A stretch of DNA of 64,000 nt from Aquisphaera giovannonii. GTDB taxonomy: Bacteria; Planctomycetota; Planctomycetia; Isosphaerales; Isosphaeraceae. The DNA lies in the NCBI RefSeq assembly GCF_008087625.1, contig NZ_CP042997.1:6014001-6078000 (forward strand), given 5' to 3'. A program made the position numbers and the translations under genes. The notes under the pieces are model-generated. The model did not search any database. It was not told the origin of the DNA and was given only the letters and a program-made list of their open reading frames with translations. Positions 26,813 to 45,676 of the stretch are shown piece after piece; within the stretch, counting starts at the first letter, position 1; the number at the start of each line of letters is the position of its first letter.

Positions 26813-29746
26813 ATGGCGATCGAGGCGATGGGGAGCGTGGCGGGGCCGCTGAACCGGCTCATCGGCGCGGGCTCGCTGGTCGGGCTGGGCGACGGCGAGC
26901 TGCTCGAGCGGTTCCTGTCCGACCGCGACGAGGAGGCGTTCGCGGCGATCGTGACGCGGCACGGGCCGATGGTGCTGCGGGTCTGCCGGGGCGTGCTGCG
27001 GAACGCGAGCGACGCGGAGGACGCGTTCCAGGCGACGTTCCTGATCCTGGTGCGGAAGGCCCGGTCGCTGCGGGGGTATGCGGACGTCGGCGGCTGGCTG
27101 CACCGGGTGGCATACCGGGTCGCGATCCAGGCGAACGCCGACGCGGCGAGGCGTCGCACGCGGGAGCGGGAGGCGGGCGCGATGGCGGAGGTCATGGCGA
27201 GCGGGCCGGCCGAGGTGGACGAGGTGACGCCCGCGGTGCATGAGGAACTCGCGCGGCTGCCGGAGGCGATACGCTCCGCTCTAGTGCTCTGCGAGCTGCG
27301 AGGCATGCCCCAACAGGAGGCCGCCGCGGCCTTGCGGACGAGCGAACGGACGCTCCGGCGTCGGCTGTCGCAGGGGCGAGAGCGGCTGAAGGCGCGGCTG
27401 GCTCGCCGCGGGCTGGCGGGCGGCGAGGCCGTTATCCTGGCGGCGCGTCTCCACGAGGCGGAGATCATCGTGCCGCCGGCCTGGCGGGAGGCGGCGGCCC
27501 GGGCGGCGGTGGAGATGCTGGGGGCGACGGTATCCGGAGGCGTCGCCTCGGCGGCGATGAGGCTTGCCGAGGACGTCTCGCGGACGAGGCTCGCGCTGAG
27601 ATCCGCCTTCGCGATGATCTGCGTCGCGGGGCTCGTCGTGACGGCTTGGGCGGCGGCCGTTTCGCGGGGAGGGCAGGGGAGGCCGACGGTCGCCCCCGCG
27701 GCCCGTCGCGAGGAACCCGCCGCGGGGCTGCCCCCGGTGCCGTATGACGGGTCGATCGAGGTGAAGGGCCGCGTGGTCGATCCCGACGGGAAGGCAGTCG
27801 GCGGGGCGGATGTGCGAGCGTCCTGGGGTTACCTCGACACTCAACCGATCCTCGTCGCGAGGGCCGGGGCGGACGGTCGGTTCGTGGTGAATGCCCCGTG
27901 GCCGCGGGCCCATCGCGCGACCGGGGCTGCGTTGCCGCTCACGCTGGCCGCGTCGGCGTCGGGTTTCGGGCCCGGTTGGGTCCGGGTCGAGGTCCGGCCC
28001 GGGGCGCCAGGCATGCCGGAGCTCCGCCTGGTGCGCGACGGCCCGCCGATCGAGGGCCGGATCGTGAACCGCGCCGGCTGGCCCGTCGCGGGGGCCACGG
28101 TGAAGGTCGAGACGATCTGGTATGGCGCCAACGAACCTTTTGACCCGGTCGAGACGGGCGATCTGGGGCCCTGGCTCCGGGACGTCCGGTCCCCCGAGCC
28201 GGGCAGAGGGGAGGTGGACCATCTCACGCACGGCGGCGACCCTCGCTTGCAGCCGATCGAATTGCCCGCCGCCTGCGTCTCGCCCGTGGTGACGGACGCC
28301 GACGGGCGATTCCGGCTCTCCGGGGTCGGCCGCGAGCGGGTCGCCACGCTGAGCGTGTCCGGGGAGGGAGTCGCCACCGCGTCCATACCGGCGATGTGCC
28401 GCGACGAGCCAGACATTCGGATTGATAATCATTTTCTACTGGTTGAGCCGGGGCCCGTGGTCCACGGCCGCCGCTTCGAGCACGTGGTTGAGCCGGGCCG
28501 ATCCATCGGGGGGACGATCCGGGACGCGGGCTCCGGGCGGCCGGTCGTCGGCCTGCCGGTGTGCGTGGGGATCATGCGATCGAAGGGCGTCGACGCCGTG
28601 TTCCGGCAGGTGGCAAGCGATGACCGAGGCCATTACCGATTCGACGGGCTGCCCGAGGCCCGCGAATGCGACCTGATGATCCGGCCGGGCGAGGGACAGC
28701 CTTACGTGAGCGCCCGATTCAAGGTGGCGCCGGCGGGGCCGGCGAAAGGATCGATCACCTTCGACCTGTCCCTGAAGCGGGGCATCCTCGTCCGGGGCCG
28801 CGTGACCGACAGGGGCACAGGCCGGCCGGCCAAGGGGATCATCTATGCGTTCGCGCTCCGCGAGAATCCCCATCTCGGCGAATATCCGGGCTTCGGCAAC
28901 GAGGGGCCCAACTACACCGAGGCCGGGGAGGACGGCCGGTTCCAGGTCGTCACCCTGCCGGGTCCGGGGCTCATTACCTGCCTCTCCGGGGATGGCCGCC
29001 ATGTCATCCATCACAAAGGGGCGACGATCCCGGCGACGGTCCCCGAGCATAACGGCGATTTCCACGCCATGGCCCGCGTGAAAGTGGATCCGGACGCTCC
29101 GCCGACGGTGGACCTGCAGGTGATCGGGCGAAAGACCCTCGACGTCCGGGCGGTCGACGATCGAGGCCAGCCGGTCTCCGGCGCGAGGATGTGGGGTCCC
29201 GGTTTTGCGGAGCCCACGCCGGAGCAGGACTCCCCCACATTCGAGGCCGTGGTGCCCAATGAGGAGAGCAGCCGCCGCGTGACGATCCTCCACGACGGCC
29301 GGAAGTTGATCGGCTCGGTCGAGCTGAAGCCGGACGAGGCCGGGCCGGTCACGGTCCGGTTGGTGCCCTGGGGTATGATCACGGGCCGGATCGTGGACCA
29401 GGACGGCCGGCCCGGCGGGTCGCTCAGCCTGCTCTGCTTCCCGGACGCCTTCGACCCGCGGCAGCCCGCCAATTCGGTACTTGCCCGGGCCATCGACGGC
29501 AACTTCATCCGCAGGAAGCAAGGCAACCCTCGCATCAAGGCCGACGCCGACGGCCGATTTCGCGTCGAGGGGATCGTCCCCGGCGTGGAATACCAGGCGC
29601 TCCTGAGCGGCGAGGGGGAGATCCCTGTGTTCGACATCCTCCAGAACTTCGAGGTCCAGGCCGGCGAGGTGAAGGACCTGGGGGATCTCGTGGTGCAGCC
29701 GCGCCGGGGCCTCCTCGGGACGACTCGCAAGGCGGAGGTCCGATAG
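26813..29746 (+). CDS. ECF sigma factor fused to TM segment and carboxypeptidase-regulatory-like repeats
   Basis: A 977-residue protein. Sigma region 2 (about 30-105) has EEAFAAIVTRHGPMVLRVCR and DAEDAFQATFLILVRKA; region 4 (about 140-200) has LPEAIRSALVLCELRGMPQQ and TSERTLRRRLSQGRERLK. A single membrane helix lies near 265-285 (AFAMICVAGLVVTAWAAAVS). The outer part holds about five carboxypeptidase-regulatory-like beta-sandwich units, beginning IEVKGRVVDPDGKAV, IEGRIVNRAGWPV, IGGTIRDAGSGRPV, VRGRVTDRGTGRPA and ITGRIVDQDGRPG. The arrangement suggests that an outside domain controls release or activity of the sigma part, but how is unknown. It is the second such fusion in 6 kb. Confidence 0.88.
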   Translation: MAIEAMGSVAGPLNRLIGAGSLVGLGDGELLERFLSDRDEEAFAAIVTRHGPMVLRVCRGVLRNASDAEDAFQATFLILVRKARSLRGYADVGGWLHRVAYRVAIQANADAARRRTREREAGAMAEVMASGPAEVDEVTPAVHEELARLPEAIRSALVLCELRGMPQQEAAAALRTSERTLRRRLSQGRERLKARLARRGLAGGEAVILAARLHEAEIIVPPAWREAAARAAVEMLGATVSGGVASAAMRLAEDVSRTRLALRSAFAMICVAGLVVTAWAAAVSRGGQGRPTVAPAARREEPAAGLPPVPYDGSIEVKGRVVDPDGKAVGGADVRASWGYLDTQPILVARAGADGRFVVNAPWPRAHRATGAALPLTLAASASGFGPGWVRVEVRPGAPGMPELRLVRDGPPIEGRIVNRAGWPVAGATVKVETIWYGANEPFDPVETGDLGPWLRDVRSPEPGRGEVDHLTHGGDPRLQPIELPAACVSPVVTDADGRFRLSGVGRERVATLSVSGEGVATASIPAMCRDEPDIRIDNHFLLVEPGPVVHGRRFEHVVEPGRSIGGTIRDAGSGRPVVGLPVCVGIMRSKGVDAVFRQVASDDRGHYRFDGLPEARECDLMIRPGEGQPYVSARFKVAPAGPAKGSITFDLSLKRGILVRGRVTDRGTGRPAKGIIYAFALRENPHLGEYPGFGNEGPNYTEAGEDGRFQVVTLPGPGLITCLSGDGRHVIHHKGATIPATVPEHNGDFHAMARVKVDPDAPPTVDLQVIGRKTLDVRAVDDRGQPVSGARMWGPGFAEPTPEQDSPTFEAVVPNEESSRRVTILHDGRKLIGSVELKPDEAGPVTVRLVPWGMITGRIVDQDGRPGGSLSLLCFPDAFDPRQPANSVLARAIDGNFIRRKQGNPRIKADADGRFRVEGIVPGVEYQALLSGEGEIPVFDILQNFEVQAGEVKDLGDLVVQPRRGLLGTTRKAEVR

Positions 29747-30700: not shown

Positions 30701-31153
30701 TCAAGGCCCGAGCCCTGAATCTGGGACGTCGCCTGTCCCGCCGTCCAGCAAGACGCTCAGGTCACGCCACAGGTTCGGGGAGACGTCGGCCGGCCCGCCC
30801 TCGACGGCGATGGCCAGGGCTTCGTCGGGTGAGCAACCCAGCACCATCGCAATGGCCGCGCCGGCGACGGCCGGCGTGCGGCTCATGCCGGCGCCGCAGC
30901 AGACGAGGGTCGGGACGTTGGCTCGCAGCGAGAGCGCGACCATGTCGACGGCCGCCCGCAGGAGCCAGGGCGGATTGCCGGCGCCATCGACGAGCGGGAA
31001 TCGGCCGCGGGCCAGGTCGCGGGGCAGGGCGGCCGGGGCCTCGTCGATGGCCAGCTCGACGACGGCCTCGATCCCCGCCGCGCGCAGGGCGGGCACGTCG
31101 CGGGCGTCCCCCGCGTGGCCCAGCCACAGCGAGCATCCGGGCAGGCGGCGCAA
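30701..31153 (-). CDS. CX5R dual-specificity/tyrosine phosphatase-like protein, last gene of the ternary operon
   Basis: A 150-residue protein starting at TTG 31153, with GAGGAG 6 bp upstream; the frame runs open further upstream but overlaps the previous gene. The fold reads LWLGHAGDARDVPALRAAGI, a phosphatase N-terminus, then LVDGAGN with Asp56 as the likely general acid, and the signature C86-GAGMS-R92 in VCCGAGMSRTPAV. The helix after it (AAIAMVLGCSPDEALAI) fits DSPs. It would remove phosphate from protein or a small molecule. It starts 23 bp after the beta-propeller gene, so it is probably translated from the same message. I have not seen a phosphatase listed in the core of such systems. 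Confidence 0.8.
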   Translation of the reverse strand: MRRLPGCSLWLGHAGDARDVPALRAAGIEAVVELAIDEAPAALPRDLARGRFPLVDGAGNPPWLLRAAVDMVALSLRANVPTLVCCGAGMSRTPAVAGAAIAMVLGCSPDEALAIAVEGGPADVSPNLWRDLSVLLDGGTGDVPDSGLGP

Positions 31154-31176
31154 GGCGGGCTCCTCATTGCTCCCGG

Positions 31177-33906
31177 TCAGCCCGGGATCGGCAGGCGGAC
31201 GACCAGGCCGTCGCGGGCGACGACGATCAGCTCGCCGGTCGGGCGGCTGGGGAAGGCCGCGACGGCCGCGGGGATGGGTTCGGGGGTGGCCCGCCAGGAT
31301 TGGAACGCCCTGGCCCCGCAGCGCACCCAGTCCACGCGGGAGCGGGAGACTCCCGCCACGACGCCCTCGCGGACGACCGCGGCCGCCAGGTAGCCCCCAT
31401 CGGCGGGCCCCGGCGACGCGTTCCGGGCGATCAACTGGCCGTCCTGGAGCCGGCCCCAGTGCAGCGACCCGTCCTCGCCGGGGCCGGCGAGCTCGAGGCC
31501 CCCGTCGGCCGCGGCGATCCAGCTCGGGGTCAGCGAGCGCAACGCGTCGCCCCGCGGCTCGGGCCGCCATTGCAGCCCGGTCGGGCGCAGGCTGCCGCCC
31601 CAGGGGTCGACCCGGCACCACTCCCGGCCGTCGTGCGTCAGGACGTCGAACTCGCCGTCCTCGCCCCCCTCCGAGTCGAGGAGCAGGCCGGGCGGCGGTG
31701 GCGCCTCGCCGGCGGGCAGGTGGAGGGTCCCCCAGGAGGTCAGCGAGCCGACCGACAGCACTTGGAACGACTCGCCGTCCCAGAGGCCGACCAGGCTCTC
31801 GATCGCGGTCCGCAGGACCGGCGTGAGCCAGGGGGAGGACAGGGCCTCCATCGTCGTCCCGGCCAGGACCTCGTAGCGTCCGTCGGGGCGTCGGGCGTAG
31901 GAGCTGATGGCCCCGCGGCCCCCCGGGTGCGACCGGAGCACGACGAGGAGCTCGCCCGTCGGGTCGGACGCCAGGGCCGCGACCGGGAGGTCGTAGGAGG
32001 AGACGGCGACGACCTCCGAGGTCTCGGGGCGGAAGGCCCAGACCTCGCCGGTCGCGGTCCCCAGGACGACGTCGCCGGACTCCGACGCGCCCGAGGCCGC
32101 GGTGACGGTCCCGGAGCAGACGCGGAGCCGGGGGCCTGCGCCGGCGACCGACGACGGGCCGTCCCGGCGCTGACGCCTCGGCGCGGTGGCCGCGTGCGAG
32201 GCGTCGCTGACGACGGCCGCCGGCCACGAGCCGCTCCCGCCCAGGAGCGACGAGACGAGCGGGGGCGCCTTCTCGCCGGCCGCGATGCGGCGCCGCAGGA
32301 CGGCCGCCAGGCCGAGCAGGGCGCGGTCGCGAAGCTCGCCCCGGGCCTGCCCGAGCCCTTCGCCGTCGCCGAAGGTGGCCACCGCGTTGTAGAACCTACC
32401 CGGCTCGGCCGCGCCGGGGGCGGCGGCGAAGAAGGCGTCGGCCTCGTCCAGGAGCGACCGGAGGGCCGGCACGTCGCCCCGGGCGGCGAGCAGGCGTGCC
32501 GCCTCCACGGCGCAGGGGACCGCGTTGGCGACCGGCCGCCGCCTCCAGCCCTCGGCGAACTGCTCCATCGCCAGGTCCGCGCGGCCGGCCTTCTTCAGCA
32601 GCAGGCTCCCGGCGGCGAGGTGGCCACCCGGGTGGGCCGCGAGCTGATCGGCGGCGGTCTGGTATTCGGCCAGGGCGGCCTCCTCCTCGCCGATCCCCCG
32701 CAGCAGGTCGCCGGCCGCCTCGTGGTCGCCGATCTCGCGGTACAGGGCCACGGCGCGGTCGGCCTCGCCGGCCGACGCGAACGCGCGGGCGGCGCCGCGG
32801 CGGTCGTCGAGCCGGGCGAGCAGGAGCACGCCGGCGTCGTGGTAGAGCCCGCCGCGGAGCAGGGCCTGGACGGCCGCCCGGTCGTCGCGGAGGAGCTTGC
32901 CGTAGATGGCCGCCGCGCGGCGGTGGTCGCCCCGCCGGGTCGCCTCCTGGGCCGCCTTGCGGTACTCGGCCAGCAACGCGGCCATCAGGTCGCCGCCGCC
33001 CAGCCAGGCCTCGCCCCCGGAGCCGCCCTTGCCGCCGAGAAGGTCTTCGAGCCGATATTTCAGGTCGCGATCCGGGAGCCGGTCGCCGCCGTGGCCCCCC
33101 GCGCCGCGGAGCTCGCCGGGGGAGGACGCGGGGATCGACCGGCGGAGGGCCTTCTCGACGTCGCCCTCCCGGAACTCGCGGAGCAGGTCGCGGAGCGCGG
33201 CCGCCTGGCGGGCGACGAGCCCGGCGTCCGGGGCCGTCGCCTCGGCCCCCTCGCGAGACCCCTCGCCCCGGGCCCGGCCGATCGCGCCCCTCAGCAGCGA
33301 GGAGGCCATGTCGCGGAGTCGGGCCAGCCCCGAGGCGCCGGCCTTCGGGGCGTCCGGGCTCGCGGGTCCCTGCGGCATCCCCTCGGAGCCGACGTCCCCG
33401 CCGCTGCCGGCGTCGAGGGCCGACTCCGGGGTCTCGTCGGGGAAGTCCACGAGGATCGACGCGATGCGGTCGGCGAGCGCCGGGCGGGCCGGGAGCGGCT
33501 GCCAGTCGCGGCGGGGGAGGACCCCGGCGGTCAGCATCGCCGCGAGGGGGATCGGCCGGCGGGGGTCGTAGGCCAGGGCCCGGCCGCCGGGCAGGAAGAC
33601 GAGGCCGCGGTCGCGGGTGAGGCCCTTCGCCTCGTCGTCGAGCAGCGCGGGCACGAGCTCGGCGTCCGCCGGCAGGAAGAGGTCGGGGGCGATCGCCCGG
33701 AGGCGGAGGGCCCCCGGAAGCGGCCCGCCGGCCGGGGTGCCGAGCTTCAGGAGCAGGCCGTCGGCGAGGCCGTGGACGCGCCCGCCGGGGTCGAGGCCCA
33801 GCCCGGCGCAGAGCGCCAGCAGCGGGGCGGGGTCGCGGCCGGCGAAGAAGGCCGCGTCGGCCGGGCCGGCATCGGGACGCCTGCGGACCTGGAAGGGGAC
33901 TCTCAT
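31177..33906 (-). CDS. Ternary-system protein: bpX-like N-terminus, TPR-like middle, C-terminal beta-propeller
   Basis: A 909-residue protein with AGGAGG 8 bp before ATG 33906. Residues 1-180 (MRVPFQVRRRPDAGPADAAF, GLVFLPGGRALAYDPRRPIP) resemble the accessory bpX domains of MoxR-vWA-beta-propeller systems. About 190-300 is low complexity. About 310-480 holds helical TPR-like repeats (YRKAAQEATRRGDHRRAAAI, AARAFASAGEADRAVALY). The last 320 residues read as propeller blades (VVLGTATGEVWAFRPETSEV, ALASDPTGELLVVLRSH, AFPSRPTGELIVVARDG). The start codon overlaps the stop of the gene before (ATGA), so translation is coupled. It is cytoplasmic and probably a scaffold or sensor; the target is unknown. 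Confidence 0.75.
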   Translation of the reverse strand: MRVPFQVRRRPDAGPADAAFFAGRDPAPLLALCAGLGLDPGGRVHGLADGLLLKLGTPAGGPLPGALRLRAIAPDLFLPADAELVPALLDDEAKGLTRDRGLVFLPGGRALAYDPRRPIPLAAMLTAGVLPRRDWQPLPARPALADRIASILVDFPDETPESALDAGSGGDVGSEGMPQGPASPDAPKAGASGLARLRDMASSLLRGAIGRARGEGSREGAEATAPDAGLVARQAAALRDLLREFREGDVEKALRRSIPASSPGELRGAGGHGGDRLPDRDLKYRLEDLLGGKGGSGGEAWLGGGDLMAALLAEYRKAAQEATRRGDHRRAAAIYGKLLRDDRAAVQALLRGGLYHDAGVLLLARLDDRRGAARAFASAGEADRAVALYREIGDHEAAGDLLRGIGEEEAALAEYQTAADQLAAHPGGHLAAGSLLLKKAGRADLAMEQFAEGWRRRPVANAVPCAVEAARLLAARGDVPALRSLLDEADAFFAAAPGAAEPGRFYNAVATFGDGEGLGQARGELRDRALLGLAAVLRRRIAAGEKAPPLVSSLLGGSGSWPAAVVSDASHAATAPRRQRRDGPSSVAGAGPRLRVCSGTVTAASGASESGDVVLGTATGEVWAFRPETSEVVAVSSYDLPVAALASDPTGELLVVLRSHPGGRGAISSYARRPDGRYEVLAGTTMEALSSPWLTPVLRTAIESLVGLWDGESFQVLSVGSLTSWGTLHLPAGEAPPPPGLLLDSEGGEDGEFDVLTHDGREWCRVDPWGGSLRPTGLQWRPEPRGDALRSLTPSWIAAADGGLELAGPGEDGSLHWGRLQDGQLIARNASPGPADGGYLAAAVVREGVVAGVSRSRVDWVRCGARAFQSWRATPEPIPAAVAAFPSRPTGELIVVARDGLVVRLPIPG

Positions 33907-36692
33907 CGCGGGGCCCTCCTGGGCGCGGCGGCCGCCCGGATCGCCGCGCCGATCCGCTCCTCGCCGCCCGGCGTCGGCGGGCCCCCGAGCATGGGGATCG
34001 GGCCGATCCGCGTGCCGTCGGGCGACCACGCGGCGATCAGGTCGCGGAAGACGAGGAGCATGCAGGCCGGCTCCCCGGATCGGTCGAGGATCGCGACCTG
34101 CCCGAACCGGTCGACGGCCACCTTCAAGTTCGGCGTGTCCGCGGACGCGACGAACCGGCGTCCGCCGGCCGGCTCGGCATCCCGGGCCGGCCCGCCCGTC
34201 GCCGCGGCCCGGGGCGGGGCGTGGACGAAGGCCCTCGCGAGCAGCGTGTCGACGTCCCCGACGGTCCGAGTCAGCTGCAGGGGGCCGCGGTCCCAGCGCA
34301 CCAGGTGGGCGTGCCGGCCGGCCTGGACCGTGAGGAATTGCGGCCCGAGTTCCACCTTCAGGTCGGGATGCGACCGGCCCCTGGGCGTCACGAGCGAGGG
34401 CGGCCCGACGTCCCCGACGACCCGGCAGGCGATCTGCCGCTCGCCCTGCCGCCAGGCGATCCGGCGGCCGTCGCGGCTCATCGCGAAGTCGCGGACGTCG
34501 CGAGGGCAGGGGAATTCGCCCAGCAATCGCCACGGGCGTGTCGCCGAGAAGACGTAAAGCGTCCGCCGCCCGTCCGGGGCTCCGACCAGTAGAGCCAGCG
34601 TCTGCTCGTTCCATCGGGCCTGCACGATGGCCCCGCCGGCAAGCTCGCGACGGCCCTCTGAGAGCTGGACGTGGAAGTGCCAACTGCCCCGGTCATCCCG
34701 GGCCGCTACCTCCCCGGTGTCATGATGCAGCTCGATCGCGCGAGAGGGCGGGGGCGGTATCCGCCCGTTTCGGACCACCACGAGCTCCGCGGTCCCCTGC
34801 CGGAACAGGTCCATTGCCTGGGATTCCCGCGGGGAGGACGGGGCCTCATGCCCTTCCGGCTCGCGGCGTCCGAGCTTCCCGAGGTCGAACGCGACGAATG
34901 GTTGTCGCCCGATCCCGCCCACGACGGAATGCAGCTGACGGAAATAGTGCCACCCCAGCTCGAGCCCCGGGGTCACGTCCACCTGGGTCGCCGTGCAGGT
35001 GCGGCTCCGCCAGTCGTAATGGGCCGCGACCGACAGATGTCCGGCGGTCCCCACGACGAGGAAGCCCCCGGCCACGCCGACCACGGCGTGGACCTTGTCG
35101 AGGACCTGCCCCTCGGCCCTGGCCCTGGGGAGCATCTCCGAGGCCGAGCCGTCGGCCCGCCACGCGTGGAGGAGGCCGTGCTGGCTCGCCAGGAGCAGCC
35201 AGTCCCCCGCGTCGTCGAAGGCGAAGTGGGAGTCGGACACGCGGGCCATCGCCCCGAACGAGAACGGGAAGCCGATCGGCTCGACGTCCCCGCGCCACCG
35301 CGACGGCGAGGCCGCCGCGGGGACGGCCTCCGGCCGCGGGGACCGGGCGTCTTCGAGGTTGACGCGGCAGCGGGCGATCGCGACCGGCGCGCCGCCGCGG
35401 AACTCCGAGAGGCCGACCTCGCCCTCCGCATCCGCCGCGACGGCGAAGAGCCGGGAATCGCCGACGGCCGCCCTCGACGCCGCCAGGACGTCCGCCTCGG
35501 TCAGGCTCCGGGGATGGGTCAGCAGGACGACGTCGCGGGCCACCGGCCCCTCCCCGGTCGGATGCAGGGCCCGCGCCAGGGCCGACCCGGGGTTGGGCGA
35601 GAGGTCGCTCGATTCCAGGACCTCGCCGAGCGCCTCGACGCCCAGGCCCTCGATCGCCGTGGGGCCGGCGTCGTCGCCGGTCGTCGCCAGGCGGATCGCG
35701 AGCCCGCGGCGCTCCCCCTGCCGGGCCAGGGCGACCGCCGCGGCGGCGAGCACGAGCCGGACGTCGCCCCAGGTGCGGACCCCCTGGTCGAGCACCAGGA
35801 CGAGCTCGCGGGCCGAGGGGGCGTGGGGCTCCTCGCGGTGGTAGTACAAGAGCTCGCGGGCGGCGAAGCGGCGGAGGAACTCGTCGGGGTCGAGCGCCAG
35901 CTGCCCCGGCAGGATGTGCTCCGGGAGCCCGCGGTTGGCCACGTCGTTGTACCCGCCGAGCGGCAGCTCCGCGCCGGTCAGGCTGCGGGGCGGCAGCGCG
36001 AGCGCCCCGTCCAGGTGCGCCACGAGCCCGCCCACCCCCTTCAGCCGGGGCCGGTCCTCGAGCGCCGCGATGGCCTCGGCGAGCGGGACCGGCAGCGCCC
36101 GGGCGATGGCGTCCCCGACCCGGGGGATCGGCCCGGTGCCGTGCCGGAGCCAGTGCCGCAGCTCGTCGGCGGACCACTCGCGGAGCGCGGCCCGGGCCCT
36201 CGCGTCGAACGCCTCCGGGCCCAGGGGCGGCTCCTCGCCGGAATAGCGACGGAGGATCGCGAACCCCATCGGGGCCCGCTCCTTCAGGCGGACCTGGAGC
36301 CGGTCCCACCGCGGCGGGTCCGCGACGGCCGGGATGTCGCGGCAGGCGACGGCGCAGAGGGCGCCGGCGTTCCGGAGGGATCGCCCGGTCTCGCGGAAGG
36401 CGCGGGCCAGCTCCTCGTGCGCCGCCACCCGGGCCGTCCCCGGGCCCGCGGCGTGCCGGCTGCCGAACCCCAGCAGGTGCAGGAAGTGGAGCACGAACGC
36501 GAAGTGCGGGAAGCCTCCCCGGGCCGCCACCCCCTCCAGGAACAGGGCGACCTCCGCGTTCAGGGCGAACGTCAGGCCGATCTCCGGGTCGTCGGCCGCA
36601 TACTCGACGACCTCGCCTCCCTCGCCCCAGCGCAGGCCGCCGAGCCATCGCCCGTAGTCTTCCGGGATCGCCAGGTAGTCATCGACTCGCAT
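33903..36692 (-). CDS. Ternary-system vWA-like / beta-propeller protein
   Basis: A 929-residue protein. Residues 1-290 are a bpX-like or helical domain (DDPEIGLTFALNAEVALFLE). About 295-440 looks like a von Willebrand A fold: ARELVLVLDQGVRTWGDVRL, LAIRLATTGDDAG, DVVLLTHPRSLTEADVL. Its MIDAS is degenerate, LDQGVRTWG in place of DxSxS, so metal binding may be lost. About 480-929 is a beta-propeller (SHFAFDDAGDWLLLASQHGL, FAMSRDGRRIAWRQGERQI, VAVDRFGQVAILDRSGEP). Its stop overlaps the ATG of the next gene by 4 nt, and its own ATG shares one base with the previous stop, so the genes are translationally coupled. With MoxR it forms the defining pair of these systems. Confidence 0.78.
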   Translation of the reverse strand: MRVDDYLAIPEDYGRWLGGLRWGEGGEVVEYAADDPEIGLTFALNAEVALFLEGVAARGGFPHFAFVLHFLHLLGFGSRHAAGPGTARVAAHEELARAFRETGRSLRNAGALCAVACRDIPAVADPPRWDRLQVRLKERAPMGFAILRRYSGEEPPLGPEAFDARARAALREWSADELRHWLRHGTGPIPRVGDAIARALPVPLAEAIAALEDRPRLKGVGGLVAHLDGALALPPRSLTGAELPLGGYNDVANRGLPEHILPGQLALDPDEFLRRFAARELLYYHREEPHAPSARELVLVLDQGVRTWGDVRLVLAAAAVALARQGERRGLAIRLATTGDDAGPTAIEGLGVEALGEVLESSDLSPNPGSALARALHPTGEGPVARDVVLLTHPRSLTEADVLAASRAAVGDSRLFAVAADAEGEVGLSEFRGGAPVAIARCRVNLEDARSPRPEAVPAAASPSRWRGDVEPIGFPFSFGAMARVSDSHFAFDDAGDWLLLASQHGLLHAWRADGSASEMLPRARAEGQVLDKVHAVVGVAGGFLVVGTAGHLSVAAHYDWRSRTCTATQVDVTPGLELGWHYFRQLHSVVGGIGRQPFVAFDLGKLGRREPEGHEAPSSPRESQAMDLFRQGTAELVVVRNGRIPPPPSRAIELHHDTGEVAARDDRGSWHFHVQLSEGRRELAGGAIVQARWNEQTLALLVGAPDGRRTLYVFSATRPWRLLGEFPCPRDVRDFAMSRDGRRIAWRQGERQIACRVVGDVGPPSLVTPRGRSHPDLKVELGPQFLTVQAGRHAHLVRWDRGPLQLTRTVGDVDTLLARAFVHAPPRAAATGGPARDAEPAGGRRFVASADTPNLKVAVDRFGQVAILDRSGEPACMLLVFRDLIAAWSPDGTRIGPIPMLGGPPTPGGEERIGAAIRAAAAPRRAPR

Positions 36693-37432
36693 CACGGCGT
36701 GTGGCCCCCGTGCGCCAGCCGGATCCCCGCCCGCGTCAGGGGCCGGAACGCGGCGAGGGGCACCGCCTCGGTGCCCTCGGTCGTCAGGATCAGGACCTCG
36801 CCCCCCGCCGCCCCGAGCGCCTCGCACAGGGACGGCTCCGGCAGCGCGGGCTCGGGCCTCAGGCCGAGCGGGGTGAGGACCGAGCGGCCCCAGAAGCGCC
36901 GGGCCCCGGGCATCGGCGGCAGCGGGCGGCCGAGGACCAGGACCCGGTCGCCCGCCCGGGCCGCCCGCAGCGGCTCGATCCGGGCGGCGGGCGCCATCTC
37001 GATCCACGCCGCGAGCTCGCCCAGCGAACACTCCATGGCCGTCGCCGGCCGCGCCGTCGCGTCGGGGACGAGCGCGAGCTCGACGGCGCGGATGGCCGCG
37101 TCCCCCGGCGATTCCGGCCGCACCGGGAGCGGGACCAACGCCCGGTGGAGCGGCATCCCGCCCGCATCGTCCGCGGGCACGTCGAACGCCGGCAGGCGGT
37201 GGCCGAGGCGATACCAGAGCCCCCCGCGGCGGACGTAGAGCTCCGCCCCGGGGATCGGCCGGATGCTCTCGAGGACCTCCGTCGAGGCCGGATCCCATCG
37301 GACCCAGGCGCGTTCGCCGGCCGTGGTCACCGTCACCGTCACGCCGGGCACGCGGCGCAGGCCGGCCAGCAGGGCGAGGCTCGCCGCGGGCAGGCGGGCA
37401 CATTCGATGGGCTCGGTCTCTGGCGGCATCAT
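36692..37432 (-). CDS. Small ternary-system accessory protein (bpX-type)
   Basis: A 246-residue cytoplasmic protein with no enzyme motif. It reads as alternating strands: VTVTVTTAGERAWVRWDPAS, AELYVRRGGLWYRLGHRLPA, IEPLRAARAGDRVLVLGRPL, EALGAAGGEVLILTTEGTEA. It sits exactly where the small bpX proteins are found, between MoxR and the vWA gene, so the name rests partly on position. The start is ATG 37432, 3 bp after the MoxR stop; its stop overlaps the next ATG by 1 nt. It may link the ATPase to the vWA/propeller subunit. Confidence 0.65.
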   Translation of the reverse strand: MMPPETEPIECARLPAASLALLAGLRRVPGVTVTVTTAGERAWVRWDPASTEVLESIRPIPGAELYVRRGGLWYRLGHRLPAFDVPADDAGGMPLHRALVPLPVRPESPGDAAIRAVELALVPDATARPATAMECSLGELAAWIEMAPAARIEPLRAARAGDRVLVLGRPLPPMPGARRFWGRSVLTPLGLRPEPALPEPSLCEALGAAGGEVLILTTEGTEAVPLAAFRPLTRAGIRLAHGGHTP

Positions 37433-37435
37433 CGT

Positions 37436-38575
37436 CTAGCCCAGGCGCCTCAGGAGCTGTTCGGTCCGTCCCAGCAGGTGGGCACGCGCGGCCTCGTCGG
37501 GGACCCAGGCGGCGCGGTCGGCCAGGTCGGCGACGCGCTCGCGGAGCCGGGCGACGGCCGCCAGGCTGGCCTTCCCGTCCTTAGCCTCGGCCTCGGCCGC
37601 GTCGACCTGGCGGGCCACTTCCTCGCCGTCGACGCGCGTGGGCGTGGCCGCCAGGGGGTGGGCGTCGGGCTCGCCGGCGTGCGGCTCGAGCAGGCCGGCG
37701 ACGAGGCCCGCCAGGGGGGCGATCTGCTCCTCGCGGTCCCAGACGTACCGCAGGACCCACAGGTCGGTCGGGCCGGCCGTGGAGCGGCCGCAGAGGACGG
37801 CGGACGCCGCGACCAGCTTCAGGACCTTGACCGCCCGGCGGTCGGACATGGCGATGCCCAGGTCGCGCACCTTGAGCACGGCGTCGGCGTACCGGTCCAG
37901 GATGCTCGACAGGTCCACCTCCGCCACGCGGCCGCCGAGCTCGCGGAGGTCGGCCGCGGTCACCGACGAGGCGTCGGCCCCGGCGGCCTCCAGCTCCCAT
38001 CCGGCCGTCAGCAGCCGGGGCATGGCCTCTCGCCTCAGGTCCTCGACGTGGCAGCGGATCAGGAACCGGTCGAAGAGGGCCCGGAGCGCCTGGTCCTCGG
38101 CGAGGTGGTTGGAGGCCGCGAACACCGAGAGCACGGGCAGCCGGTGCACCTCGGCCCCGCGCCGGTAGACCCGCTCGTTGAGGACGCTGAGCAGGTTGTT
38201 CAGGATCGCGCTGTTGGCGTTGAAGAGCTCGTCCAGGAAGACGAACTCCGCCTCGGGGAGCATGCCGGCGGTCACCGTCGCGACCGTCCCCTCGCGGAGC
38301 CGCACCAGGTCGATCGGGCCGAAGACCTCGTTCGGCTCCGAGAACCGCGTCAGCAGGTACTCGAAGTAGCGGCCCTGCACGGCGGTCGCGAACCGGCGGA
38401 TTAGGGCCGATTTCGCCGTGCCCGGAGGCCCGTGCAGGAACAGGTGCTCTCCGGCGACGACGGCCAGGGCGATGAGGTCCACGACCTCGTCGCGGCCGAC
38501 GAACCGCCTCTTGAGCGCGTCGATGACCTCGCGGCCCAGGCGGCCGACCGTATCCTTATCCCCGCTGCCGACCAT
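37436..38575 (-). CDS. moxR: MoxR family AAA+ ATPase (ternary-system ATPase)
   Basis: A 379-residue AAA+ ATPase. Walker A is GPPGTAKS (49-56), Walker B FVFLDE (111-116). RFSEPNEVFGPIDL and LLSVLNERVYRR match the MoxR/RavA helix-2 insert clade, and AASNHLAEDQALRALFDRF carries sensor 1 and the arginine finger. A helical lid and a Glu/Ala-rich C-terminal tail (about 290-379) follow. MoxR proteins act as chaperones that remodel vWA-containing partners, here most likely the product at 33903-36692. It starts at ATG 38575, overlapping the preceding gene by 20 bp, and is followed by the small protein after 3 bp. Confidence 0.93.
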   Translation of the reverse strand: MVGSGDKDTVGRLGREVIDALKRRFVGRDEVVDLIALAVVAGEHLFLHGPPGTAKSALIRRFATAVQGRYFEYLLTRFSEPNEVFGPIDLVRLREGTVATVTAGMLPEAEFVFLDELFNANSAILNNLLSVLNERVYRRGAEVHRLPVLSVFAASNHLAEDQALRALFDRFLIRCHVEDLRREAMPRLLTAGWELEAAGADASSVTAADLRELGGRVAEVDLSSILDRYADAVLKVRDLGIAMSDRRAVKVLKLVAASAVLCGRSTAGPTDLWVLRYVWDREEQIAPLAGLVAGLLEPHAGEPDAHPLAATPTRVDGEEVARQVDAAEAEAKDGKASLAAVARLRERVADLADRAAWVPDEAARAHLLGRTEQLLRRLG

Positions 38576-39194
38576 CCCCGCCCCCTCCCTCCGGCGATGC
38601 CCCCCGGCCCGCGGCCTGGCGCACCAGCTCCAGATAGTCCTTCCCCGCCCTCTCGGGCTCCCAGGCCGGTCGGCCTCGGGCGGCGTATCGCTCGGCGTAC
38701 AGCATCAAGAGCCCCGGGTGCCCGCCCAGGTTCGTCGGCGTGAGAGGCGGCTCCTCCAGGCCGGCGAGCACGCCCGAGAGCGGCCATCGCCGCAGCACCT
38801 CCGCGAGCATCCCCACGAGCGGGTCGTCCGGGCCGCTCGCCCGGGCGCGACGATGGACGCCGGGCAGGTACCGGAGGAGCAGGTCGGCCGACAGGTGCTG
38901 GGAGGGCCCCCCCGGCGTCCGCCTCATCGCGACCCTCGCGGCGAGGTCTTCCACCCGGTCCCCCTGGTTGACCATCGCCCAGCACGCCTGGCGGACGACC
39001 TCCGCGGCCTCGCACGCGACCCCGGCGTCGAACGGGATCGCCGGCCCGGCGACGTCGAGGCGATGCGTCTCATACGCCTCCGCGAGCAGGGCGGTGACCT
39101 CGGCCGACGGCCCCTCGGCCGGCCCCGGCCGCGACCGGAAGACGACGTTGCCCTCGCGCAGGAGGCCATCCAGGAACTCGTGGAGCTGGGCCAT
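38556..39194 (-). CDS. First gene of ternary operon: helical protein of unknown function
   Basis: A 212-residue, mostly helical soluble protein: AQLHEFLDGLLREGNVVFRS, AEVTALLAEAYETHRLDVAG, ACEAAEVVRQACWAMVNQGD, VHRRARASGPDDPLVGMLAE, WEPERAGKDYLELVRQAAGR. No catalytic motif is seen. Similar helical genes precede MoxR in ternary systems, but I cannot name the family. ATG 39194 was picked as the first start before conserved-looking helices; a GTG four codons upstream is possible. It overlaps MoxR by 20 bp, so it is the likely first gene of the operon. Confidence 0.7.
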   Translation of the reverse strand: MAQLHEFLDGLLREGNVVFRSRPGPAEGPSAEVTALLAEAYETHRLDVAGPAIPFDAGVACEAAEVVRQACWAMVNQGDRVEDLAARVAMRRTPGGPSQHLSADLLLRYLPGVHRRARASGPDDPLVGMLAEVLRRWPLSGVLAGLEEPPLTPTNLGGHPGLLMLYAERYAARGRPAWEPERAGKDYLELVRQAAGRGASPEGGGGDGRQRG

Positions 39195-39740
39195 GGAGTC
39201 GGACACCGGCGAGGCACGGGAGCCTTGACTTGATGCATCGCCGCCTCGCCCCCGGACGGGACGGCGGTGCGGGCGGCCGACGGACGTACATCCCATGATA
39301 CCGGGCGGGTCCACCCTCGCCCGACGGGCCGCGTACCAGCGGGAGATTCGCTTCGATGGCCCCCGGCCTCGGACGGCTCGATTCTTGCCTTGCAGACTCC
39401 TCAAGCGGAAGGTCAGCTTCGCCCCCCTCCCGGCGTGGCCCGTGATCGGGTCTCGGTGGGACCGCGGCCCTCTATCCCCCCTCCCGCTCGGCGGGAAAGG
39501 GCTAGGGTGAGGGTCCTCCGGCCCCGGATTCTGCTCCTCCGTCGCACTCGTGAATGGGGCATACTGACTCCCCCGGATCTCAGTCATCCGAGGCCCCCTC
39601 CGCCCTCACGCCGACCCTCTCCCGCCGAGCGGGAGAAGGAGAGGGCTCTTCGCTCGCGGCCCGAGGGAATCGGGGCTTCAACGCCGTCGGAGCGATCCAC
39701 CGGCCCGAACCCTCCCACCCGCCGCCTCGTAGGAACCGCC
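39195..39740. promoter_or_regulatory. Divergent gap holding the likely ternary-operon promoter
   Basis: 546 bp between the first gene of the minus-strand operon and selO (plus). The inverted palindrome pair B (39476-39645) fills the selO-proximal half. No operator or promoter box could be picked with confidence. Confidence 0.4.
39476..39645. repeat. Inverted pair of GC-rich palindromes (pair B)
   Basis: CCTCCCGCTCGGCGGGAAAG with GGGTGAGGGT at about 39480, and the inverted arm CCCTCACGCCGACCCTCTCC with CCGCCGAGCGGG near 39604-39635. It is the same paired layout as pairs A, C and D, with a unique spacer of about 95 bp. Confidence 0.65.
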
Positions 39741-41330
39741 ATGCAAATCGACCAGGCCCGCTTCGTCCATTCGTTCGTCGAGGACCTCCGGGGGGAGGCC
39801 GACGCGGTCAACCGTCCGCGGCAGGTGCCCGGGTACTGCTATTCGGCCGTCGCCCCGACCCCCGTGCGGGCGCCCCGCCTGCTGGCGTGGTCGGATGAGC
39901 TCGCGGCGATGCTGGGCCTGGAGCGGCCGGCGGGGCGGGGGCCGGGGGCGGACCTGCTGGCCGGCAACCTCGTCACGCCCAGCATGCGGCCCTTCGCCGC
40001 CCGCTACGGCGGGCACCAGTTCGGGAGCTGGGCCGGCCAGCTCGGCGACGGCCGCGCCATCTCGCTCGGCGAGCTGGAGGCCCGCGACGGCTCCCGCTGG
40101 GAGATCCAGCTCAAGGGGGCCGGGCCCACACCGTACTCGCGGCACGCCGACGGCCGCGCCGTGCTCCGCTCGTCGCTCCGCGAGTTCCTCTGCAGCGAGG
40201 CGATGCATCACCTCGGCGTCCCGACCACACGGGCGCTGAGCCTCGTCGCCACCGGCGAGGACGTCATCCGCGACATGTTCTACACGGGCGACGCCCGCCC
40301 CGAGCCGGGCGCCGTCGTCGCGCGGGTGTCCCCCAGCTTCGTCCGGTTCGGCAACTTCGAGATCATGGCGGCCCGCGACGAGCACGACAACCTCCGCGCC
40401 CTGGCCGGCCACGTCCTGCGCCGCCATTACCCCGAGCTCGGCGAGCCCTCCGAGGCGGCCTACCTCGCCCTGTTCGAGGAGGTCTGCCGCCGCACCGCCG
40501 TCCTGATGGCCCGCTGGATGACCCTCGGGTTCGTGCACGGCGTGATGAACACCGACAACATGTCGATCCTGGGCCTGACGATCGATTACGGCCCTTACGG
40601 CTGGCTCGAGCCCTACGAGCCGGGCTGGACGCCCAACACGACCGACTTCGGCTCCCGGCGGTACGCCTTCGGCCAGCAGCCGGGCGTGGCTCTCTGGAAC
40701 CTCTCCAAGCTGGCCGCCGCGCTGACGCCCCTGGTCACCGGGACCGACGGGCTCCTCGCGGGGCTGGAGACGTATCGCTCCACGTACCTCCGGGCCTACG
40801 GCGAGGGGATGTTCCGCAAGCTGGGCCTGGCCCCGCGCGACCCCGAGGCGGACGAGGCCCTCCTCGACGGGCTCCACGCCGCGATGGAGCAGTCGCAGGT
40901 GGACATGACGCTCTTCTTCCGCGGCCTCTCGACCGCCGCGCCCGGACTGATGCCCGCGGAGGGCTCGCCCGAGCCGGCCTTCCGCCGCCTCGTCGCGGAG
41001 GCGTCCTACCTGGCCCCGGACGCGCCCGAGCACGCCGCGATGCTCGACTGGCTGGGCACGTACCTGGGCCGCCTCCGGGCCGAGGCCGCCCGGCCGGAGG
41101 AGATCCGCGACGCGATGCTGGCCGTCAACCCGAAGTATGTGCCGCGCAATTACCTGGCCCAGGAGGCCATCGAGGCGGCGGAGGCCGGCGACCTCTCGCG
41201 GCTGGAGGCCCTGATGCGGGTCCTGCGTCGCCCCTACGACGAACAGCCCGAGCACGCCGCGATGGCCCGGAAGCGCCCGGAGTGGGCACGCACCAGGCCG
41301 GGATGCGCCACCCTCTCGTGCAGCTCGTGA
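39741..41330 (+). CDS. selO: Protein adenylyltransferase SelO (YdiU family)
   Basis: A 529-residue pseudokinase-fold enzyme that moves AMP from ATP to Ser/Thr/Tyr of proteins, linked to redox stress. Conserved blocks: YGGHQFGSWAGQLGDGRAIS, ELQLKGAGPTPYSR-like KGAGPTPYSRHADGRAVLRS, SSLREFLCSEAMHHLGVPTT, and HGVMNTDNMSILGLTIDYGP with the metal-binding Asn and Asp. The C-terminus ends CATLSCSS, the conserved CxxxxC tail in which some SelO proteins carry selenocysteine; here both are cysteine. The length is near the usual 480-530. The start is ATG 39741 with AGGA upstream. Confidence 0.95.
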   Translation: MQIDQARFVHSFVEDLRGEADAVNRPRQVPGYCYSAVAPTPVRAPRLLAWSDELAAMLGLERPAGRGPGADLLAGNLVTPSMRPFAARYGGHQFGSWAGQLGDGRAISLGELEARDGSRWEIQLKGAGPTPYSRHADGRAVLRSSLREFLCSEAMHHLGVPTTRALSLVATGEDVIRDMFYTGDARPEPGAVVARVSPSFVRFGNFEIMAARDEHDNLRALAGHVLRRHYPELGEPSEAAYLALFEEVCRRTAVLMARWMTLGFVHGVMNTDNMSILGLTIDYGPYGWLEPYEPGWTPNTTDFGSRRYAFGQQPGVALWNLSKLAAALTPLVTGTDGLLAGLETYRSTYLRAYGEGMFRKLGLAPRDPEADEALLDGLHAAMEQSQVDMTLFFRGLSTAAPGLMPAEGSPEPAFRRLVAEASYLAPDAPEHAAMLDWLGTYLGRLRAEAARPEEIRDAMLAVNPKYVPRNYLAQEAIEAAEAGDLSRLEALMRVLRRPYDEQPEHAAMARKRPEWARTRPGCATLSCSS

Positions 41331-41485
41331 GGGCGGGCCCGGGACCGGCAGGTCGGGCAGACCGGCGACCGCCGGGCGGGTAGAATGACCTCGCATGGAT
41401 CGACCCGGCTCGGTCGGCCCCGCTCCGCCGCGGCGGAGTGTCGCATCGCCCGCGCAACCGAATGGGACGGGAGGGGTCTCCATCC

Positions 41486-43774
41486 ATGGCCCTCAGGGAC
41501 TGGTTCTCGCGCCGGACTCCGCTGCAGGCGGCCCTCGACCGGGGCACCCGGCCCGGCGGCGACCTCGCGGCCGAGCTGAATCGGCTCGAGGACTACACGG
41601 TCACATCCCGGGCCGACGCGGAGGCCATCTGCCGGGTCCTCGAGCGGGTGAAGCCGGGGGACTCCGACGGCGGCCTCTGGACGGCGTTCCACTCGCTCGT
41701 CGGCCTCTTCCAGGACGTGGAGGGGCCGGAGTGCCCCGCCTTCGACGTCCTCGCGGAGAAGGGCAACGGGCTCCTGGCCGGGATCGTGAACGAGGCCCTC
41801 GACGACCCATCGCGGGCCGAGGCCGGGGCCGACGACATCCTCTTCGCCCTCAAGATCCTGGCCCTCTACGGGACCGAGGAAGGCACCGACGCGGTGCTCC
41901 GCGCGGCCCGCCTGCCCCTCAGGCCCGACGCGTACATGTGGAGCGTGATCCTGCACGCCTACTCGCCGTCACACCCCGAGCTGGAGCGGGTGCTCGAGGC
42001 CCTCGGCGATCCGCCACCCGCCGATTTCCTCGCGGTCTCCCTGCTGGACTGCGCCAACGTCGCCCTGCGCGAGGGGGCGGAGTGCCGGCATCCCTTCGAT
42101 TCCGAGGCCGGCCGGCGTCAGCTCCGCTCCTGGCTGGCGGACGGCGACGAGGAGCACTCCAGCTACGCCGTGAGCGCCGCGGCGGCGCTGCCGTTCCTCG
42201 ACGAGCCCGGGCGGGATGAGCTGCTGGCGGCCGCGCTCGATCACCCCTCGGCCGACGTCCAGCTCGAGGCGGCGTGGGCGGCGGCCAGGCTCGAGGACGA
42301 GGACGGAATTCGCCGGCTGTCGCGATGCTGCCTCGACGTCAACCTGGCCGACCGGGCGAGGCGATACCTGGAGGAGCTGGACCGCGCGGACGCCATCCCG
42401 GCCGAGGCGGAAGACGCCGCGTTCCGGGCCCGCGCCGAGTTCGCGCAGTGGCTGGCCCATCCCAACGAGCTCGGCCGGCCGCCCGACGAGGTGGAGGTCG
42501 TCGATCACCGCGAGCTGGAGTGGCCGCCCGAACGCGAGCGCGGGCCGTTCTGGCTCGTCCGCTATCGCGTGAAGGACGCGACCGGGCTGAAGCCGGACGA
42601 CGTCGGCGTCGGCCTGGTGGGGAGCATGACCTTCTGCCTCTTCACCTACAAGCTCGAGGAGCGGCCGCCCGAGGACTGCTATGCGATCCACTGCTACTGG
42701 GAGATGACCTGCCACAACCTGATCGAGGAAGCGGACGTCGCGGACCCGGCGGAATACGAGTCGCTGCTCCAGCGGTGCCGGATTGACGGACTGGGCCCGG
42801 CGCGCGTGGAGACGGTCGTGGAATTGTCGCCGGAGCTGAAGTACCCGCAGCGCCTGGTCGGCCTGGGCAGGGCGACGCGGCATGACCGGCCCGGCTGGGT
42901 CGTCGTCGACGGCCCCCGGAGCCGCTGGTACGCGGCCGACGAGATGCCCGCCGGCACTCCCGACAAGCTGGTGGTCATGGTCCACGTCGGCCGGGAGCTG
43001 CTCGGCTTCCGGGACGAGCCCGACCGCCGCCGCTACCTCAAGGAGCCCGAGCCGGCCCGCCCTCCCGAGGAGATCGACGCCGCCTACGAGGCCCTGCTGG
43101 AGAAGGCCGGTCGCGAACCGGGCCAGGCGGAGCGGCTCTTCGGGAGCGGCAGCGTCCTGACCTCCGCGTTCAACGACTACGCGGGGGCCCTGTCGGCGAC
43201 GCGGTCGCTGCCCCGGGCGGCCTGCGTCTGCCTGGCCTACGAGTCGATCCTGGACGCGGCCCGGCGGGCGGAGTCGTCGCAGGGCGGTAAGGCGTTCGAC
43301 GTCTTCTCGCCGCTCGGCGGGACCTTCGACTCCTACGTCGATGCCCTGATCGAGCTGGGCCGTCGGGACGAGGTCCCCGCCCTCGTGGAGACCTTCCGCC
43401 CCCACTGGGACCACAACCTGGGCCGCGCCCGGCTGGCCGCCGCCGCGTTCCGGAGCGGCCACGACGCGATCGCCGAACCCCTCCTCCTGACGCTCCGGAC
43501 CACATTGGAGTCCTGGGGCCGGGATGAGGCGGTGGCCCAGCTCGCGGCGATCTGGAAGAGGCAGGGGCGGGCCGATGAGGCGCACGCCCTGTTCCTCGAC
43601 GCGCTCAAGGGCCTGGTGGCGGAGGCCCGCCAGGCCTCCGGATCCGACCGCGACGACGTGGAGGAGTGGCTCCGGGAGCAGCGATCGCGATACCTGGACC
43701 TGTTCCCGGAACGCGGCGAGGCCGAGCTGGAGCGGCTCGGCATCCCCCCGACCACTCGGCCAGGCACGCCGTGA
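41486..43774 (+). CDS. Large HEAT-repeat-like protein of unknown function
   Basis: A 762-residue soluble protein behind GGAGG and ATG 41486. The N-terminal 300 residues are helical repeats (ALDDPSRAEAGADDILFALK, LAAALDHPSADVQLEAAWAA-like HEAT units). A central part (about 335-520) is mixed alpha/beta and includes PERERGPFWLVRYRVKDATG and DVGVGLVGSMTFCLFTYKLE. The C-terminal 250 residues are helical again, TPR-like (AVAQLAAIWKRQGRADEAHA). No catalytic motif was seen. It is not clearly in an operon; SelO precedes it by 155 bp. Confidence 0.75.
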   Translation: MALRDWFSRRTPLQAALDRGTRPGGDLAAELNRLEDYTVTSRADAEAICRVLERVKPGDSDGGLWTAFHSLVGLFQDVEGPECPAFDVLAEKGNGLLAGIVNEALDDPSRAEAGADDILFALKILALYGTEEGTDAVLRAARLPLRPDAYMWSVILHAYSPSHPELERVLEALGDPPPADFLAVSLLDCANVALREGAECRHPFDSEAGRRQLRSWLADGDEEHSSYAVSAAAALPFLDEPGRDELLAAALDHPSADVQLEAAWAAARLEDEDGIRRLSRCCLDVNLADRARRYLEELDRADAIPAEAEDAAFRARAEFAQWLAHPNELGRPPDEVEVVDHRELEWPPERERGPFWLVRYRVKDATGLKPDDVGVGLVGSMTFCLFTYKLEERPPEDCYAIHCYWEMTCHNLIEEADVADPAEYESLLQRCRIDGLGPARVETVVELSPELKYPQRLVGLGRATRHDRPGWVVVDGPRSRWYAADEMPAGTPDKLVVMVHVGRELLGFRDEPDRRRYLKEPEPARPPEEIDAAYEALLEKAGREPGQAERLFGSGSVLTSAFNDYAGALSATRSLPRAACVCLAYESILDAARRAESSQGGKAFDVFSPLGGTFDSYVDALIELGRRDEVPALVETFRPHWDHNLGRARLAAAAFRSGHDAIAEPLLLTLRTTLESWGRDEAVAQLAAIWKRQGRADEAHALFLDALKGLVAEARQASGSDRDDVEEWLREQRSRYLDLFPERGEAELERLGIPPTTRPGTP

Positions 43775-44052
43775 TGGCGAAGGGGTTCATCCTGCCGGGG
43801 CGTGCATCGGGCGTGGGGAAGGCCTTTCGGAGTCGAGATCGCCGCCCGTCCGGTTGACTGCGCACGATGGGGCGGCAGCACTCCCCCCGGGTGGCTGCGG
43901 CAGAGCCGGAGGCGATGCCGCGGGATCGCCGGGGCTCGCGGGCCGGCCATCGGGCCACTCGGCGGCCCGACCGACCCGGCGTCGCGGGGGTGACCCACCG
44001 GTCGGCGCCCGCTTCGACCGGACGAGCCGACGAAGGGCTGGCCCGAGGGCGG
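43775..44052. other. Convergent gap with a palindromic repeat
   Basis: It lies between two converging genes. GGGTGGCTGCGGCAGAGC at about 43888 with a partial arm after it is the third copy of the palindrome family seen at 12578 and 30642. No gene was seen. Confidence 0.45.
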
Positions 44053-44505
44053 TCAGGCGAGCTCCTTGACGAACCGGAAGCTCGACCTCGCGTAGCCGAG
44101 GTGCTCGTAGAAGGCGTGGGCCTCGACGAGCCGGAGGTTGCTGGTGATCTCCAGCAGACCGCAGCCCGCGGCGGCCAGCGCGGACTCGGCGGCGGCCACG
44201 AGGGCTCGGCCGATGCCCCGGCCGCGGTATCGCTCGTCCACGACCAGGACGGTGATCCGGCCGACGGGCCGGGGCCGGTGGAGGACGATCGTCCGGTGGA
44301 GCGTGGCCACCCCGAGGAGCGTGCCGTCGGGACACGCCGCCGCGAGGGCGGAGTTCCCCTCGGCGGACCAGGCCGCCCATCGCGAGGCGATCGACTCGGC
44401 GGAGGTCGGGTGCCGGAGCTCCGCGAGCAGGCGCGAGATCTCGGGCGCGTCGCCGACGCGGGCGACTCGGATTTCGAAGGCCGGCGGGTGCGGTGCGGTG
44501 GTCAC
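44053..44505 (-). CDS. GNAT family N-acetyltransferase
   Basis: A 150-residue acetyltransferase with GTG start at 44505. It shows FEIRVARVGDAPEISRLLAE (helix 1), ITVLVVDERYRGRGIGRALV with the acetyl-CoA loop RGRGIG (about 95-100), CGLLEITSN and EAHAFYEHLGYARSSFRFVK, all typical of GNAT proteins. The acceptor is unknown. It follows the DUF1810 gene by 6 bp, with its ribosome site inside the end of that gene, so the two are co-transcribed. Confidence 0.88.
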   Translation of the reverse strand: MTTAPHPPAFEIRVARVGDAPEISRLLAELRHPTSAESIASRWAAWSAEGNSALAAACPDGTLLGVATLHRTIVLHRPRPVGRITVLVVDERYRGRGIGRALVAAAESALAAAGCGLLEITSNLRLVEAHAFYEHLGYARSSFRFVKELA

Positions 44506-44511
44506 GGCCGG

Positions 44512-44979: not shown

Positions 44980-45162
44980 CGGGGCCTCCTCGGGGCGATC
45001 GGGCTCGGGCCCGCTCGATCGGGTCCGGATCGTCGCCCCCCGTCGTAGTGTATCGGCCCCGTCGATGGCCCGGCAATCGACGCGGCCCCGCGGGATTGAC
45101 GCGGAGTGCGGGTTGCCCTAGCCTGGCTGGGGGCCCCGAGCCGCCGAGTCGAGGAGGATCGC

Positions 45163-45645: not shown

Positions 45646-45676
45646 TCGGCACGGGCCCGGCACCCGAGGGTTCGGC

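Follow-up and report, generated by a model that had tools for sequence, protein, structure and literature searches.

Six adjoining minus-strand open reading frames at 30701-39194 of the window (the whole 64,000-nucleotide stretch of the Aquisphaera giovannonii genome analysed here) raise the question which of these genes belong together and what their products could do. A sequence-only reading had described them as one operon of a MoxR-vWA-beta-propeller ternary system with gaps of -20, +3, -1, -4 and +23 bp, and the ORF check returned exactly these genes, coordinates and gaps. It had also taken the layout as known from comparative genomics, and indeed the arrangement corresponds to the beta-propeller ternary system, which Kaur et al. 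(2020; PMC7159879) list as number four of their MoxR-vWA subsystems. These authors called it enigmatic for want of a conventional effector and proposed an anti-invader conflict role. In their description, a three-part core is accompanied by bpX2 and bpX4 as extra genes in a subset of loci, the vWA protein carries approximately four propeller blades, and the third component typically, though not by definition, has a membrane segment in its N-terminal part. In Pfam, the system is covered by the families PF19915, PF19917-PF19920 and PF20030. As had been stated earlier, no member is known to have a measured function: our literature search found neither such a function nor later experimental work on beta-propeller MoxR systems. 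The six genes are, in the order of transcription:

38556-39194, minus strand: bpX4 helical subunit (P0002, 212 aa; Pfam PF19920), first gene of the module
37436-38575, minus strand: bpMoxR AAA+ ATPase (P0003, 379 aa; P-loop GPPGTAKS; PF20030 and RavA PDB profile match)
36692-37432, minus strand: bpX2 (P0004, 246 aa; alpha+beta, ferredoxin-like N-terminal part; PF19918)
33903-36692, minus strand: vWA-propeller component (P0005, 929 aa; bpX0/bpX1, model and propeller match), with an N-terminal helical bpX0 region, a Rossmannoid vWA-like domain (295-443), a beta-propeller (476-862) and a C-terminal bpX1 region
31177-33906, minus strand: bpX3-TPR-propeller component (P0006, 909 aa; PF19919; IFT144 TPR and WD40 profile matches)
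30701-31153, minus strand: CX5R dual-specificity-type phosphatase, outside the module (DSPc, E 1.2e-4)

The first five products were all assigned to bp families in Pfam (bpX4, bpMoxR, bpX2, bpX0/bpX1 and bpX3), which bears out the proposed system. The MoxR ATPase matches PF20030 with an E-value of 1.3e-90 and carries the GXXXTAKS P-loop of the bpMoxR type. The AAA+ motifs noticed earlier are present and conserved, with the Walker A motif GPPGTAKS, the Walker B motif FLDE, the ASN of sensor 1 and a DRFL motif being invariant in 18 aligned members. In a profile search of the PDB, chains of RavA were the only strong matches (1.2e-60, followed by 1.8e-13) which makes the branch of RavA the closest characterised relative of this MoxR. 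The RavA equivalog model gave 180 bits, below its cut-off of 681, the similarity being that of the AAA+ core alone. The phylum search also yielded a second MoxR group (G235, G208, G115 and others) with 160-212 bits to bpMoxR, which lies between true members and ordinary MoxR proteins and is possibly another ternary type.

The first gene had been described only as encoding a helical protein. The product is helical, and the incomplete label can now be extended to membership of the bpX4 family (PF19920: E 2.9e-40, 138.5 bits, cut-off 27), whose gene precedes that of MoxR in almost every related locus. The small protein predicted to be bpX-like is bpX2 (PF19918: E 2.9e-50). Its AlphaFold2 model (mean pLDDT 93.5, pTM 0.62) has two alpha+beta parts, the N-terminal one being ferredoxin/PII-like at a low Z of ~5. 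Foldseek against the PDB gave no match for bpX2 at E <= 0.001, which does not show a new fold, and a PDB sequence search gave no match either. The TPR/propeller protein belongs to bpX3 (PF19919: E 1.9e-18; 39 of 39 homologues match the family). Its IFT144-like TPR part (~254-454) is the best conserved region, TPR families are matched in its homologues, and a WD40-like propeller follows. By a crude hydropathy test, no membrane segment is evident in this protein (highest 19-residue Kyte-Doolittle mean 1.27). Short versions of bpX3 with ~570 aa occur in several Bacteroidota, and in four Kordia loci (L192, L208, L217, L222) the bpX3 matches are split over two adjacent ORFs, possibly by a gene split.

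The 929-aa protein needs more care. By itself it scores 28.1 bits for bpX0 and 24.0 bits for bpX1 (cut-off 27 in both cases); among its aligned homologues, bpX1 is matched in 52 of 53 and bpX0 in 46 of 53, and with the relatives included the family assignment by sequence is firm. The propeller part of the earlier description holds: the AlphaFold2 model (mean pLDDT 84) places a propeller in the C-terminal part with a WD40 match at Z ~15, and profile matches to WD40 and BamB propellers cover residues 514-775. The vWA part stands on predicted topology and family membership. Alternating strands and helices are modelled for residues 295-443, with Asp302 at the end of strand 1, and ivWA, the form of vWA in FtsH-type systems, is weakly matched at the corresponding strand. 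A profile of the family gave non-significant results against ordinary vWA domains of the same genomes, while two control sets of ordinary vWA domains recognised each other, and a PDB search with the sub-domain was likewise non-significant. Instead of DxSxS, the motif reads D-x-[GTS]-[VIL]-[RK]-x-W-G; Asp302, Trp308 and Gly309 are found in all 53 sequences and Arg/Lys306 in 52, whereas the position of the second MIDAS aspartate of canonical vWA domains holds Asp in only 5 of 53. The canonical MIDAS is thus lacking, and an Asp...Arg-x-Trp-Gly signature stands in its place. We regard the domain, as modelled, as vWA-like with moderate confidence.

How far does the unit extend? A scan of a species-level genome collection returned more than 570 MoxR relatives. 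In the window's family and phylum, the order bpX4-MoxR-bpX2-vWA-bpX3 was found in all 40 loci wherever the contig allows. Over both locus sets, all five genes lie on one strand and in this order in 87 of the 93 loci with enough flank, so the arrangement is not due to chance; after removal of identical MoxRs, the order is retained in 77 of 83. Five of the six exceptions have no bpX4 match, and bpX4 may be dispensable in some loci; the remaining one (L165) has bpX2-vWA-bpX3 inverted nearby. Clustering of the flanking ORFs gave lineage-specific neighbours only and no recurrent sixth gene. The carriers of the module include Planctomycetota, Bacteroidota, Verrucomicrobiota, the candidate phylum Wallbacteria and one Thermoanaerobaculia MAG; a cultured example is Singulisphaera acidiphila DSM 18658 (locus L158). 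On the Hymenobacter plasmid NZ_CP115397, exactly the five genes are present, with ~0.7 kb to unrelated neighbours on either side. Because the order is fixed in 77 of 83 loci and a conserved sixth gene is missing, the real unit comprises five genes, neither three nor six. The label "ternary" is right as the name of the published system and too small for what is conserved together; our data point to five genes as the normal unit, compared with the three-part core plus extras of Kaur et al. To judge from its sequence, the locus is a genuine, well-preserved member of the beta-propeller MoxR-vWA system that had already been described from genomes.

This leaves the phosphatase, which the sequence-only reading had counted as the sixth operon member. 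That all six genes form one phosphatase-linked signalling operon is conceivable from the local layout: the phosphatase lies on the same strand after a gap of 23 bp, and an SD-like GAGGAG stands 6 nt before its TTG start, all of which makes transcription by read-through plausible. The protein itself matches the dual-specificity phosphatases weakly. Against a common operon, not one of 40 related loci has the phosphatase next to the module. The orthologue most similar to it (66 % identity) is encoded in the same-genus genome G001, which is 100 % complete and contains no bpMoxR above 58 bits. In G010, whose module is the nearest relative, the module is located at 4.02 Mb and the homologue of the phosphatase at 1.13 Mb. 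Alignment and blastn of the window with the corresponding locus of G001 (L121, contig C235) furthermore revealed an empty site. There, the phosphatase gene and a GNAT gene share 4 bp, and the next gene after GNAT is the orthologue of window positions 44515-45117. In the window, the copy of this GNAT gene lies at 44056-44511, 12.9 kb away from the phosphatase. The segment and its neighbours are:

31153-44050: segment absent at the corresponding G001 site by blastn and alignment, made up of the five-gene module, SelO and the gene of a 778-aa protein
39741-41330, plus strand: SelO AMPylase, inside this segment
41438-43774, plus strand: 778-aa protein with no Pfam match, inside this segment
29755-30597, minus strand: microbial-type PARG (PF10021), directly downstream of the phosphatase

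The module together with SelO and the 778-aa-protein gene (12.9 kb) therefore separates two genes that are adjacent in G001. Absent beside related loci, found in relatives that lack the system and present next to an empty site in G001, the phosphatase is a bystander outside the system, and the six-gene operon is very improbable. An insertion in the lineage of the window is more likely than a deletion in G001, because a deletion would need to produce the ATGA overlap while leaving the two genes undamaged; outgroups do not settle the direction, as the pair of GNAT and phosphatase genes was found solely in G001. Since 12-bp direct or inverted repeats were absent at the two edges of the insert, we claim no transposition mechanism. 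SelO and the 778-aa protein were not found in G001 or in G002, the other same-genus genome. Two neighbours were considered as linked partners and rejected: among six genomes, PARG was found in G001 alone, on a contig other than that of the phosphatase, and SelO was found in just two, G010 and G037, a long way from the module. The position of the PARG orthologue on another contig in G001 indicates that this side of the site is also rearranged.

The distribution of the module in the family is patchy. A bpMoxR above 250 bits was detected in 19 of 45 family genomes and is missing in 26, and within the genus of the window it is present only in the window genome itself (G000), being absent from G001 and G002. 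Within four genera (g12, g14, g19, g20), the module is stable. The RpoB tree groups G000 with G001 and G002 and then with G017 and G019 (support 96-99), and RpoB of G000 is 96.6 % identical to that of G001 and 86.2 % identical to that of G010. In the tree of the five operon proteins, by contrast, G000 pairs with G010 (support 100), and forcing G000 together with G017 and G019 was rejected (AU test, p 3.6e-101). The blastn match to G010 spans 31171-39214 at 74.8 % identity and covers the five genes and nothing else. Since the operon and RpoB trees conflict and two same-genus genomes lack the system, the module was acquired horizontally as a block. On a larger scale, the module type of the window's family resembles that of f27 (G130, G309, G164), a planctomycete family far removed from it, much more than it resembles the modules of other families in its own class; this closeness (L100-L106) suggests a further, old transfer between families. 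Two genomes of one genus, G377 and G424 (L087 and L091 among the loci), share 96.7 % RpoB identity while their modules are only 41-46 % identical outside MoxR, which suggests that a distant copy has replaced one of them or that they have changed very fast. A phage origin was rejected: a search of phage and viral contigs turned up MoxRs of the RavA-like kind, yet no bpX2, bpX4, vWA or bpX3. In IMG/VR, a RavA-like MoxR whose motifs are of the GPPGTAKS type is present on many viral contigs (L292-L371), some of them larger than 200 kb, with no bpX gene nearby.

What could such a unit do? Our main reading, to which we assign a probability of about 0.6, is that the five genes are one complete system member and most likely encode a single multi-subunit, ATP-driven remodelling machine that is accessory and transferable. 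By analogy, an accessory machine of the RavA-ViaA kind is the favoured function, and ATP-driven remodelling of a client would be its likely action. The RavA-like MoxR would form a hexamer onto which the vWA-like/propeller protein docks as a co-chaperone, in the way that RavA is bound by ViaA and NorQ by NorD. Scaffolding or recognition of the client would fall to the TPR-propeller protein, and bpX2 and bpX4 would be obligatory structural subunits. While the vWA-like/propeller and TPR/propeller proteins hold the client, ATP hydrolysis would pull the vWA component and thereby change the state of the client complex, perhaps in a response to stress or invaders.

The comparison with known systems gives this picture its outlines. 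With the system of Kaur et al. (PMC7159879), the module shares the GXXXTAKS MoxR, a propeller-bearing vWA-type component, a TPR/propeller third component, bpX2 and bpX4, as well as the occurrence in Planctomycetota, Bacteroidota and Verrucomicrobiota. It differs from their description in that bpX2 and bpX4 are present in nearly all loci and in fixed order, the bpX3 protein here has no membrane segment, and the propeller of the vWA protein measures ~390 residues in the model, more than approximately four blades. Like E. coli RavA-ViaA, it combines a MoxR with a separate vWA-type partner, RavA being the nearest solved relative; unlike ViaA, the partner carries a propeller and no full MIDAS, and three further obligate proteins are added. 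The model for the proposed remodelling is NorQ-NorD, likewise a MoxR ring acting on a vWA partner, in which a finger of the vWA protein reaches into the pore of the hexamer and a linker is twisted by the ATPase activity (PMC13036017). NorQ-NorD, however, inserts metal into NO reductase, whereas no client gene is linked to our module. With the FtsH-type MoxR-vWA ternary system it has in common the GXXXTAKS P-loop and, as modelled, a divergent vWA-like domain, but its five genes include neither an FtsH-like component nor a Ub-like cassette.

Two other readings have to be weighed against the remodelling machine. In the published proposal (PMC7159879), the module is an anti-invader conflict system, whose fast-evolving parts sense infection, whose MoxR-vWA pair sets the threshold and whose effector is the N-terminal domain of bpX3. 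The patchy distribution, the block transfer and the plasmid copy are all in line with it, as is the fast divergence of the module proteins other than MoxR. Mobility and patchiness agree with a role in conflict, although accessory modules with housekeeping tasks are mobile as well. On the other side, a toxic or nuclease effector was recognised in none of the subunits, nor any other enzyme-like effector among the five products; the PADLOC 2023 defence models did not match the five proteins (MoxR reached only 0.014 to mad8), and clear defence neighbours are missing. The N-terminus of bpX3 is no more variable than the propellers in the window's family, and in each of the pairs tested, dN/dS of all five genes stayed below 1 (0.07-0.25 for MoxR, up to 0.55 for the others). 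The missing effector and the missing membrane anchoring of the bpX3 protein do not favour the published effector model, and we consider an immunity function rather unlikely.

The same purifying selection on all five genes and the same lack of an effector speak for a dedicated assembly or maturation chaperone that serves a single complex of the host, such as a respiratory or metal enzyme, in the manner of RavA-ViaA, NorQ-NorD and CoxD-CoxE. The RavA-like MoxR and the stability of the module within four genera would suit such a role as well, but no linked client gene was found in the relatives; moreover, the module is dispensed with in more than half of the family genomes and moves alone, as on the plasmid. 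A dedicated host chaperone is thus a doubtful option for us. Coming back to the remodelling machine, a more specific form of it is put forward only tentatively: a RavA-like machine of five subunits, complete in itself and exchanged horizontally, whose vWA-type co-chaperone works without metal and whose bpX2 has an overall fold unmatched so far, and not a sensor-effector immunity system. If true, it would represent a new class of mobile AAA+ chaperone.

New in this analysis are the five-gene unit, the exclusion of the phosphatase, the empty site, the transfer as a block and the identification of RavA as the closest characterised relative of the MoxR. The comparison fixes the cloning target to five genes without the phosphatase, and close relatives are at hand for a comparison of gain and loss, with G010 being donor-like and G001 and G002 naturally empty. 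With the unit defined and the five-gene set isolated on a plasmid, immunity versus chaperone function becomes directly testable.

Further out, the neighbourhood of the module in the window is not an obvious defence island. A methyltransferase at 45629-46453 was considered as mad2 of a MADS system and set aside, as it looks like a generic methyltransferase match. Beyond PARG, two sigma-70-type factors with long C-terminal extensions are encoded on the plus strand at 26813-29746 and 23505-25295, one of which carries carboxypeptidase-regulatory-like repeats.
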